Part shown: positions 910 through 16,220 of the stretch, piece by piece
How positions within the stretch are numbered: position 1 is the first letter of the stretch
How the letters are laid out: each line of letters starts with the position of its first letter
Assembly: GCA_012521395.1 (NCBI GenBank)
Contig: JAAYML010000039.1
Location: 1 to 36,866, forward strand
Origin: Candidatus Epulonipiscium sp.
GTDB taxonomy: Bacteria; Bacillota; Clostridia; Lachnospirales; Defluviitaleaceae
DNA: 36,866 nt
Direction of reading: 5' to 3'
Translations under genes and position numbers: made by a program
Notes under the pieces: generated by a model
What the model was told of the DNA's origin: nothing
The model's input: only the letters and a program-made list of their open reading frames with translations
Database searches by the model: none

Positions 910-938
910 TTGACAAAGTATATTGACCGTGATATGAT
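910..938 (+). promoter_or_regulatory. sigma-A promoter of the pyr operon
   Basis: A perfect -35 TTGACA at 910-915 is followed after 17 bases by TATGAT at 933-938, one base from the -10 consensus. Transcription would start near 945, giving a leader of about 300 nt before pyrB. This is the best-looking promoter in the window. Confidence 0.85.
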
Positions 939-980: not shown

Positions 981-1026
981 AACGCATATTAACCTTTAAT
1001 TTGGTCCTGTGAGGCCGGAAAGGAAG
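981..1026 (+). promoter_or_regulatory. PyrR-binding loop (anti-antiterminator) of the pyr leader
   Basis: The outer stem pairs CCTTT (993-997) with AAAGG (1019-1023). The inner stem pairs GGTC (1003-1006) with GGCC (1013-1016) and carries the hexaloop CTGTGA (1007-1012), which fits the CNGNGA loop recognised by PyrR in Bacillus pyr leaders. From family knowledge, PyrR bound to UMP or UTP stabilises this structure and lowers expression. The upstream sequence AACGCAT (981-987) can pair either with ATGCG (1034-1038) or with TGCGTT (1048-1053), giving alternative folds. AAAGGAAG (1019-1026) is also a good Shine-Dalgarno, and its AAAGG lies inside the outer stem. pyrR itself is not in the window. 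Confidence 0.8.
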
Positions 1027-1030
1027 AGTG

Positions 1031-1058
1031 AAGATGCGAGACATCGGTGCGTTTTTTT
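1031..1058 (+). terminator. candidate first attenuator terminator of the pyr leader
   Basis: AAGATGCG (1031-1038) can pair with TGCGTTTT (1048-1055), including G-U pairs, around a 9-base loop, followed directly by a run of seven T ending at 1058. The stem is weak. Its position just downstream of the PyrR loop, with the T-run, is what a PyrR attenuator needs. The alternative pairing of 1034-1038 with 983-987 would prevent it. Confidence 0.5.
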
Positions 1059-1219
1059 ATTATGTAAAAAATCAATATAATCAAGTTGTAACTTGTGGAA
1101 ATATGGGGGTAGAACCAGCTTTTGTTTTAGATTTTCTACCTGCTTTTATATTTCCATTTTTATTATTACCAATTAAAAGCAATAAAGAGAATAATTATTC
1201 TCTTTATTGCTTTTTTTAA
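1034..1219 (+). CDS. possible pyr leader peptide (61 codons)
   Basis: ATG at 1034 lies 7 nt after AAAGGAAG. The frame runs 61 codons to TAA at 1217-1219, just past the strong terminator hairpin at 1175-1217. The product would be hydrophobic and F/Y-rich, with no family I recognise. The arrangement recalls the E. coli pyrL leader peptide, whose reading frame also spans the attenuator. The Shine-Dalgarno is part of the PyrR-binding stem, so PyrR binding would hide it. A chance ORF in AT-rich DNA is a real alternative. GTG at 1028 is an alternative start but sits too close to the ribosome binding site. Confidence 0.3.
   Translation: MRDIGAFFYYVKNQYNQVVTCGNMGVEPAFVLDFLPAFIFPFLLLPIKSNKENNYSLYCFF
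1096..1161 (+). promoter_or_regulatory. large nested leader hairpin
   Basis: TGGAAATAT (1096-1104) is the exact complement of ATATTTCCA (1148-1156). Inside it GGTAGAA (1108-1114) is the exact complement of TTCTACC (1134-1140). The outer stem is followed by TTTTTATTATT, so this could act as a second, weaker terminator or as a structural partner in attenuation. I do not recognise it as a named riboswitch. Confidence 0.5.
1175..1217 (+). terminator. strong terminator hairpin immediately before pyrB
   Basis: The segment 1175-1214 is a perfect 20+20 base inverted repeat (left arm starts AAAAGCAATAAAGAG) closed by a small AATT loop and followed by a T-run to 1217. It sits 11 bases before the pyrB Shine-Dalgarno AAAGGAGG (1229-1236), with no gene between promoter and hairpin except the possible leader ORF. 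It must therefore be an attenuator rather than an end-of-operon terminator. Confidence 0.8.
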
Positions 1220-1244
1220 TGAAATCAAAAAAGGAGGAAATTAA

Positions 1245-2243
1245 ATGTTGGAAAATAAGGACTTGTTAGGAATCAGGTATTTAAGTCCTTTTGAAATTTT
1301 GTCTATTATCCATACGGCAGAAAAAATGAAGTTGAAGATAGATAATAAAAAATTAAGAGAAAATATCCTTGAAAATTATAATATCGTTACTCTTTTTTAT
1401 GAAAACAGTACGAGAACAAAAATGTCATTTTCCATGGCTGGTAAGTATCTTGGAGCAAAGGTGACTGACCTGGGCGTTGCAACCAGCAGCGTTAATAAGG
1501 GTGAAAGTTTAATAGATACGGGAATCACACTGGATCAAATGGGTTTTGATATAATGGTTATCCGTCATAGTATGTCAGGGACGGCTAATCTGTTAGCAAG
1601 AAATGTTAAGGCCTCTGTTATTAATGCCGGTGATGGAATCAATGAACATCCGACACAAGCCTTATTAGACCTTTTTACGATATATGAAAAGAAAAAGAAC
1701 TTTCAGGATTTAAAAGTAGCAATTATTGGAGATATCGTTCACAGCCGGGTAGCAAGAAGCAATATCTTTGGCCTGAAGAAATTAGGTGCCGAAGTGGTTG
1801 TATGTGGTCCGGCGACCTTAGTGGATAAAAATATTGAATGTCTTGGGGCAAAGGTAACAACGGATATAAAAGAAGCACTGAAAGATGCAGATGTGGTGAT
1901 GGGGCTGCGTATTCAGCTTGAAAGACAAAAAGGTGGCCTTTTCCCTGACCTTAGAGAATATAGTCAAACCTTTGGTGTCAATAAAGAGTTAATGCAATAT
2001 GCCAAAGAAGATGCTATTCTTTTACATCCTGGTCCAGTGAACCGGGGGGTAGAATTAACAACTGAGCTTATTGACGGGGAACAGTCTTTGATTCATGAAC
2101 AGGTGAAAAATGGCGTTGCGGTTAGAATGGCTATAATAGATCTATTAATGGAAAGGAGAAAGAAAGATGAAGTTACTGATACAAAATGGCCGGCTTCTGG
2201 ATCCCTTGTCCAGGACGGATGGGAAAAAAGATATATTGGTTGA
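1245..2243 (+). CDS. pyrB: aspartate carbamoyltransferase catalytic subunit
   Basis: It joins carbamoyl phosphate and aspartate to give N-carbamoyl-aspartate, the committed step of pyrimidine synthesis. The carbamoyl-phosphate motif STRT sits in ENSTRTKMSFSMAG; further landmarks are HPTQALLDLFTI, GDIVHSRVARSN, MGLRIQLERQ and LLHPGPVNRGVE. ATG 1245 is preceded by AAAGGAGG. The core family fold ends near residue 306, but this frame continues to 332 because its stop lies 77 bases inside pyrC. That gives an extra basic/acidic tail of about 25 residues not expected in the family (usually about 305-311). No regulatory pyrI follows, so control is expected at the leader rather than by ATCase allostery. 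Confidence 0.96.
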   Translation: MLENKDLLGIRYLSPFEILSIIHTAEKMKLKIDNKKLRENILENYNIVTLFYENSTRTKMSFSMAGKYLGAKVTDLGVATSSVNKGESLIDTGITLDQMGFDIMVIRHSMSGTANLLARNVKASVINAGDGINEHPTQALLDLFTIYEKKKNFQDLKVAIIGDIVHSRVARSNIFGLKKLGAEVVVCGPATLVDKNIECLGAKVTTDIKEALKDADVVMGLRIQLERQKGGLFPDLREYSQTFGVNKELMQYAKEDAILLHPGPVNRGVELTTELIDGEQSLIHEQVKNGVAVRMAIIDLLMERRKKDEVTDTKWPASGSLVQDGWEKRYIG

Positions 2244-14545: not shown

Positions 14546-14563
14546 TATAGATATCAAATTAAT

Positions 14564-14632
14564 ACTCATATATGCTCAATAATATGGTTTGAGCGTTTCT
14601 ACCAGGGAACCGTAAATTTCCTGACTATGGGT
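14564..14632 (+). promoter_or_regulatory. purine riboswitch aptamer, guanine class
   Basis: P1 pairs ACTCATA (14564-14570) with TATGGGT (14626-14632). The conserved core reads ATATGGTTTGAGCGTTTCTA, continuing into a CCGTAAAT loop, as in the xpt-type aptamer. The specificity position before the 3' P1 strand, in GACTAT, is C (14625), which in this class selects guanine or hypoxanthine rather than adenine. With the terminator at 14684-14712 it should switch purF-M-N-D off when guanine is plentiful. Confidence 0.9.
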
Positions 14633-14683
14633 GAAAGTGTCTGAAAGAATGTTCGACTGAAATAAAGGTATTATATATTTGGA

Positions 14684-14807: not shown

Positions 14808-16220
14808 ATGCAACGGGAATTATTAGATGATAAGTTTCATGATGAATGCGGCGTTTTTGGTATTTATAACAAAAATAACTGGAATACCGCTGAAATGACT
14901 TACTTTGGTTTATATGCTTTACAGCATCGGGGACAAGAGAGTGCAGGGATTGCTATTAATGATAACGGAACCATTCTTTATCACAAAGAAATGGGAATGG
15001 TATCAGAAGTATTTGACGAGGTGATTATTAATCATTTACATGGTCAAATGGCTATTGGACATGTAAGATCGGCTATGTCTGGAGAAAACCAAAAAGAGAA
15101 TACTCAGCCTTTAGTTCTTAAATATACTAAGGGCAATATGGCTCTTGCTCATAATGGAAGTCTGGTGAATGCAGCTAAAATAAGAAATGATTTAGAGGAG
15201 AAAGGATTTTTATTTCAATCTTATAGCGACGCTGAAGTTATTGCTGCTCTTCTTTCAAAGGAGAGAATAAGACATCATAGTATAGAAGAATCATTGGTTG
15301 AAGTGATGAAGCAAATCAAAGGGGCATATTCTTTATTAGTTATGACGCCTCATAAATTAATTGCTGCAAGAGATCCTTTAGGGATGAGGCCTTTATGTAT
15401 TGGCAAGAAAGATGATTCCTATGTATTTTCTTCAGAAACTGCAGCCCTGGAAACCATAGGGGCAAATTTTGTAAGAGATGTAAAGCCAGGAGAAATTGTA
15501 GTGGTTAACGAAGAGGGTATAACTTCTATACAAACAGAAGCACCTAAGGAATCCAAAATGTGTATTTTTGAGTTTGTATATTTTGCCAGACCTGATAGCA
15601 TTATTGATGGGGCTGATGTATATGAAGCACGTTTAGAAGCCGGAAAAATTCTTGCCAGAGAGCACCCCGTAGATGCAGATTTAGTTATCGGTGTACCAGA
15701 TTCTGGTCTTACTGCAGCCCTGGGTTATGCTATGGAAAGTGGTATTCCTTATGGGGATGGCTTAATGAAAAATCGCTATATTGGAAGAACTTTCATACGA
15801 CCAAGTCAGGAAATGAGGGAACAAGCGGTCAGATTAAAATTAAACCCTTTAAAAAGTCAGGTTGATGGTAAGAGAATTATTATGATAGATGATTCTATAG
15901 TAAGAGGAACTACAAGCAAGAGGATTGTCAAAATGTTAAAAGAGGTAGGAGCAAAAGAAGTTCATATCAGAGTAAGCTCACCTCCTGTATATTACCCATG
16001 TTATTTTGGAATAGATACACCTCATAAAGAAAATTTAATTGCCAATCATTATTCCATTGAAGAAATTGCTGAATTAATCGGTGCCGACAGTCTTGCTTTT
16101 TTATCGATAGAAGGTCTTAAGAAAACACCTATTGGAGCAAAATGCGGTTTTTGTACTGCTTGTTTTGATGGAAATTATCCAATTAACGTTGATAAGGAGG
16201 AAAAAGAGTATGGATTATAA
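14808..16220 (+). CDS. purF: amidophosphoribosyltransferase
   Basis: It makes phosphoribosylamine from PRPP and glutamine, the first step of purine synthesis. The nucleophile is Cys14 in DECGVFGIY, preceded by a 13-residue propeptide that the Bacillus-type enzyme removes. The glutaminase domain continues with [10 protein letters not shown]; the PRPP loop is [16 protein letters not shown]. Candidate [4Fe-4S] ligands are the cysteines of [21 protein letters not shown] and KCGFC, matching the oxygen-sensitive Bacillus type. ATG 14808 follows AAAGGAG. Unlike CarA, its amidotransferase site looks intact. Confidence 0.96.

Follow-up and report, generated by a model that had tools for sequence, protein, structure and literature searches.

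The question raised by this locus is which element of a single pyrB leader, carrying a predicted PyrR-binding loop, a short open reading frame (ORF) and an intrinsic terminator, would decide whether transcription enters the gene. The window, meaning the whole stretch of 36,866 nucleotides analysed, lies on contig 42 of an AT-rich, 2.22-Mb genome of Candidatus Epulonipiscium sp., and its features are collected in Table 1. In the operon, pyrB is followed by pyrC, pyrF, carA, carB, pyrK, pyrD and pyrE, with names assigned by recognising the translated products. The promoter, whose layout is identical in the congener G001 (the nearest relative compared, recorded as Candidatus Epulonipiscium sp. 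AS23ysBPME_183), is probably the one in use, in which case transcription would start at about position 945. The entire leader folds with -70.6 kcal/mol (z -3.06), and a PyrR gene was found by profile search elsewhere in the genome, on contig C13 (258 bits, over the curated cut-off). Another RNA element of the window, a purine riboswitch (RF00167, 91.3 bits, 14546-14647), lies within a purine gene cluster and precedes a putative purF frame at 14808.

Table 1. Elements of the pyrB leader and of the start of the pyr operon, with positions in the window.
Feature	Positions	Strand	Basis
Promoter, sigma-70-type, TTGACA-17-TATGAT, TG ahead of -10	910-938	+	11/12 consensus positions
P0, 5' strand ACGCAT, partner GTGCGT 1047-1052	982-987	+	Consensus fold
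PyrR-binding loop (predicted), 3' strand AAAGG 1019-1023 being the leader-ORF ribosome site	993-1023	+	RF00515, E 0.0036
P2 hairpin GATG-CGAGA-CATC, contains start codon	1033-1045	+	Paired in 10/10 genomes
Leader ORF, 61 codons, ATG 1034, stop TAA 1217-1219	1034-1219	+	Open frame in 15/15 genomes
P0, 3' strand GTGCGT	1047-1052	+	Consensus fold, conservation
Hairpin within ORF, core GGTAGAA 1108-1114 / TTCTACC 1134-1140, then U-rich sequence	1097-1155	+	Window fold
U-rich 50 nt ahead of terminator	1126-1175	+	T 0.56 vs mean 0.28, pyr coding strand
Intrinsic terminator, 18-bp stem 1175-1192/1197-1214, T-run to 1217, in last part of leader ORF	1175-1217	+	z -8.1
pyrB Shine-Dalgarno AAGGAGG	1231-1237	+	Sequence
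pyrB, opens pyr operon	1245-2243	+	ORFs, translations; homologues in 8/8 family genomes

The window agrees with both the loop consensus and the stem of the PyrR-binding element RF00515: CCTTT (993-997) pairs with AAAGG and encloses TCCTGTGAGG (1005-1014). The match to the model spans 989-1161 and reaches 34.5 bits, short of the whole-model gathering score (54); agreement is good over the loop half and poor over the model's terminator half. A sequence-only reading of this DNA had claimed that AAAGG is at once the 3' strand of the PyrR stem and the ribosome site of an ORF beginning at ATG 1034, and that this ORF crosses the terminator and stops directly after it. Both points were borne out base by base: the ribosome site AAAGGA (1019-1024) ends 9 nt ahead of the ATG. 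The overlap of loop and ribosome site, one mark of translational control by PyrR, was found at AAAGG in the window and in 15 genomes in all.

These 15 genomes, in which the whole arrangement is conserved, belong to three families: all eight genomes of the home family (f1), two of f22 and five of a single genus (g46) of f2. In the eight home-family genomes, the loop is followed by a leader ORF of 52-64 codons, the terminator and then pyrB, and the start codon lies 10 to 12 nt past AAGG; the f22 genomes share with them the leader start MRDIGAFFY, and the g46 genomes present a different leader peptide in the same layout. Because the f2 and f22 members were chosen by layout from pattern hits, the home-family genomes, found through PyrB, constitute the cleaner sample; an open frame was not a requirement of the pattern search. 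Its class-level version, run with a fixed 8-nt spacer, missed the window itself, so that the 4 it counted do not give a frequency.

Between its start codon and the terminator, the leader ORF has no in-frame stop in any of the 15 genomes, whereas the other two frames contain 71 and 67, and the product of the shuffle probabilities, with one genome per genus, is 3.5e-10. Six added loop-bearing leaders gave no stops in this frame and 28 and 21 in the others. The weight of this finding rests on the conservation of the open frame, since in the window alone it is unremarkable (P 0.04). Conservation had been set beforehand as a test that could refute the idea; the ORF withstood it, since the frame stays open in the relatives even though the peptide is not conserved. 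Nonsynonymous changes outnumbered synonymous ones in every genome pair, and pairwise comparison revealed no clear excess of third-position changes, for which reason purifying selection on the peptide was rejected. The peptide drifts freely except in its first codons, whose bases double as P0 and P2; a Pfam search with the window peptide returned no family match, including PF08052 (PyrBI_leader), which E. coli pyrL matches at 3.1e-34. An open frame combined with free drift is what would be expected where translation matters and its product does not. The start is also conserved, ATG 1034 being kept and not the in-frame GTG 1028, a candidate start that occurs in two congeners only and was discarded.

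The conserved structure around this start goes beyond what had been noticed previously. P0 was paired in 10/10 genomes, and since it is nearly invariant (CGCAT is identical in the ten genomes, of two families), its support comes from conservation, not covariation; P2 shows one compensatory change, in G028. In predicted folds, the start codon had a mean probability of being unpaired of 0.00-0.24 in f1 and f22 and 0.50-0.73 in g46, and the ribosome site one of 0.03-0.73 and 0.03-0.07, respectively; where a loop sits immediately on a gene, the ribosome site of that gene had 0.25-0.52. In f1 and f22, the 5' domain is thereby predicted to hide the leader start even without protein, yet its stability is no greater than that of shuffles (z -0.04); of all steps in the model presented below, the opening of the ribosome site when UMP is low is the weakest. 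In genera g2-g4 (alignment A1, columns 4-21), an upstream GAAATG is complementary to CATTTC, a stretch that shares bases with the P0 strand CGCAT; such a competing hairpin could possibly free the leader start.

Further downstream, the terminator (-21.1 kcal/mol) shows compensatory changes at six stem pairs within the home family, and its counterparts in 15/15 genomes range from -16 to -26 kcal/mol, with the 5' arm beginning inside the ORF. The hairpin that precedes it within the ORF, likewise an addition to the sequence-only reading, retains its core or a close variant in the eight home-family genomes (G005 is misaligned there) with one-sided changes only, and would be a candidate site for RNA polymerase pausing. 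Over the 50 nt leading up to the terminator, the T fraction was 0.46-0.56 in f1, 0.36-0.48 in f22 and g46 and 0.44-0.74 in the loop-free leaders described below, the reference being 50-nt windows of the window's own pyr coding strand; as a control, E. coli pyrL gave 0.28 vs 0.22 in E. coli pyrB. The leader thus combines both marks of the pyrL type, an ORF across a terminator before pyrB and a U-rich stretch ahead of that terminator. Another possible terminator, at a T7 run (1052-1058), was set aside, its T-run being broken in G005, G006, G028 and G041.

The classical PyrR attenuator requires pairing between the loop region and the 5' arm of the terminator, and in the window the expected number of such pairs was 0.0. 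Among the f1 and f22 pyrB leaders it was 0-0.3, with the exception of G003 (2.2), whereas four of the five g46 leaders gave 3.9-5.7 (0.4 in G196). The pyrR leaders of G006 (11.4), G007 (8.6), G054 and G196 gave 8.6-11.9, and those of G001 and G000 gave 3.3 and 1.0. An antiterminator may be present despite a low value, since the classical controls Caldanaerobacter (0.9) and ZC4RG12 (0.0) were also low. In a duplex comparison, seven of the ten f1 and f22 leaders had z of 0.04 to 1.12, G005 had -0.49 and G003 and G004 had -1.8; three of four outgroup leaders ranged from -2.0 to -2.6, and the strongest duplex among home-family pyrR leaders was that of G006 (z -3.77). These predictions indicate almost no antiterminator pairing at home-family pyrB, whereas pyrR leaders of the same family (G006, G007) show it. 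In home-family pyrR leaders (L120, L128, L115, L119), it was observed that the AAGG of the loop is immediately followed by ATGTC, and in some genomes short frames begin there.

A wider census searched 76 genomes of the order for PyrB, and leaders were read at 20 places. Loop, ORF and terminator were found at further loci in f7 (G013), f8 (G035, G014) and f2 (G008, G032) and at L007; G044 has loop and terminator without the ORF. Six genomes of f12 and two of f18 lack the loop and have a short ORF with several UUU/UUC codons running into a terminator before pyrB, leaders that resemble E. coli pyrL. Neither loop nor ORF with terminator was seen in G052, G023 (with only 234 nt upstream) and G010. 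The PyrR gene was present in 13 of the 24 genomes tested, exactly those with a loop before pyrB, and absent from the eight loop-free genomes with ORF and terminator (8/8) and from those with neither (3/3); because these groups follow families, the association represents few independent events. In a midpoint-rooted PyrB tree of 27 rows, including one f12, one f18 and six further loop-free loci and leaving out G202, whose pyrB is cut short, the sampled loop-free leaders formed one clade (support 97/98) amid loop-bearing lineages, with the classical leaders outside. On the simplest reading of these sequences, the loop-free lineage would have lost PyrR and the loop jointly. On contig C44 of G001 (L117), a further stretch resembles pyrB (54% identity), and an additional PyrR loop precedes a pyrR-like frame; these could be assembly contamination.

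These results altogether suggest, with a probability of roughly 0.7, that a ribosome operates the transcription attenuator in the pyrB leader and that PyrR gates the start of translation there. When UMP is plentiful, PyrR would keep the loop together, and the ribosome site and the start codon would both be buried within loop, P0 and P2; with no ribosome behind the polymerase, the terminator would fold and transcription would end before pyrB. When UMP is scarce, a ribosome would translate the leader ORF, reach the 5' arm of the terminator and allow read-through. The hairpin within the ORF and the U-rich stretch probably slow the polymerase, letting the ribosome catch up, and slowing on the U-rich stretch may add a direct response to UTP. 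The merging of PyrR control with pyrL-like attenuation that had been proposed from the sequence alone gains support from the PyrR-less relatives, which keep ORF and terminator without the loop, as would fit a translation-coupled attenuator to which a PyrR loop was added. Since g46 has a partial antiterminator, a purely ribosome-operated version is claimed for f1 and f22 only.

This reading was weighed against explanations that assign the decision to one part of the leader. In classical attenuation, the known mechanism of Bacillus (PMC7430163), PyrR would stabilise an anti-antiterminator and the ORF would be a bystander. The g46 leaders speak for it, as four of the five have 4-6 expected pairs between loop and terminator arm and in 4/5 the 5' flank of the loop tracks a G/A change of that arm, but the near-absence of such pairs from f1 and f22, set against the pyrR leaders of G006 and G007, makes it unlikely at this locus; moreover, a bystander ORF leaves unexplained both the open frame and the loop-free relatives that keep it. 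It would be equally unlikely that the leader is a UTP sensor of the pyrL type, in which ribosome coupling depends on how the polymerase pauses along the U-rich stretch and PyrR has little weight at pyrB. The high T fractions of the home family and of the loop-free relatives are in its favour, but the leaders of f22 and g46 are less U-rich, and the loop stands before pyrB in 13/13 PyrR-bearing genomes tested and is missing where PyrR is missing.

The distance of 17-73 nt between the ORF stop and the pyrB start in the 15 genomes would also suit an ORF that serves mainly translational coupling or reinitiation for pyrB. This is improbable, as pyrB is itself preceded by a strong ribosome site and such a role needs no terminator starting inside the ORF, which was nevertheless seen in 15/15 genomes. 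Hardly any credence is left for an ORF that is a chance frame or encodes a functional microprotein: a short AT-rich leader can be open in one genome, as the P value of the window illustrates, but not readily in 15/15, and the excess of nonsynonymous changes in every pair and the lack of a Pfam match argue against a functional product.

The preferred reading, a PyrR-gated and ribosome-operated attenuator, has partial precedents. Van de Casteele is said to have proposed in 1997, for the pyr leader of Thermus strain ZO5, that the translating ribosome and not an antiterminator decides termination. That leader likewise joins PyrR and a terminator; it belongs to another phylum and the proposal reportedly came from one gene cluster, whereas the Bacillota leaders were compared across families with respect to the overlap, the open frame, the start-codon hairpin and the PyrR-less relatives. 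The proposed PyrR-gated leader ORF would therefore be a variant of that earlier proposal and not a wholly new idea. In Mycobacterium smegmatis, Fields and Switzer (2007) reportedly described PyrR-dependent translational repression acting directly on the first pyr gene; there, too, a PyrR loop covers a ribosome site, but in the window the site serves a leader ORF that is followed by a terminator and not pyrB directly. The Bacillus attenuator (RF00515) shares the loop consensus and the presence of PyrR in the genome and differs from the window, where no antiterminator pairing was found at pyrB and a leader ORF is added.

A translating ribosome can repress a terminator, and at E. coli pyrBI the terminator lies within a 135-bp leader gene and pause sites couple ribosome and polymerase (PMC4824070). 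The window resembles pyrBI in having a leader ORF across a terminator just before pyrB and UUU/UUC codons ahead of that terminator; unlike the window, pyrL has no PyrR loop, and only pyrL matches PF08052. Within Bacillota, bmrB of B. subtilis is subject to ribosome-mediated attenuation with a terminator in the leader coding region, in this case responsive to antibiotics and without PyrR (PMC4191407). B. subtilis is also reported (Johnson 2020, as described in PMC7858274) to uncouple transcription from translation, so that coupling of ribosome and polymerase is not assured in this order and the pyrB leader offers a direct test of it. The arrangement was not found described in the literature on PyrR leaders, attenuation, translation or pyrBI, covered mostly by titles and abstracts and thinly for subscription journals.

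One leader would thus join two textbook modes of pyrimidine control and, if the model is true, represent a conserved ribosome-operated attenuation in Bacillota. The sequences suggest a natural series (classical loop, loop with ORF, ORF alone), in which it could be tested how one mode turns into another. More tentatively, at somewhat less than even odds, a two-input attenuator may be ancestral in the order, PyrR-UMP gating ORF initiation and UTP setting the pausing on the U-rich stretch; one lineage would then have lost both PyrR and its loop, leaving Bacillota with a UTP sensor of the pyrL kind.

PyrR-like loops were also observed over ribosome sites in other settings. In three Cloacimonadota loci (L037, L038, L039), such a loop covers the ribosome site of a short ORF that precedes pyrB, and at L053 a loop-like stretch is found just ahead of the pyrB start itself. 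At L076 and L106 (f2) a permease-like gene has its ribosome site directly under the loop, as does pyrB at L098-L101 (f15, f23); judged by their placement, these loops are candidates for translational repression by PyrR in Bacillota.
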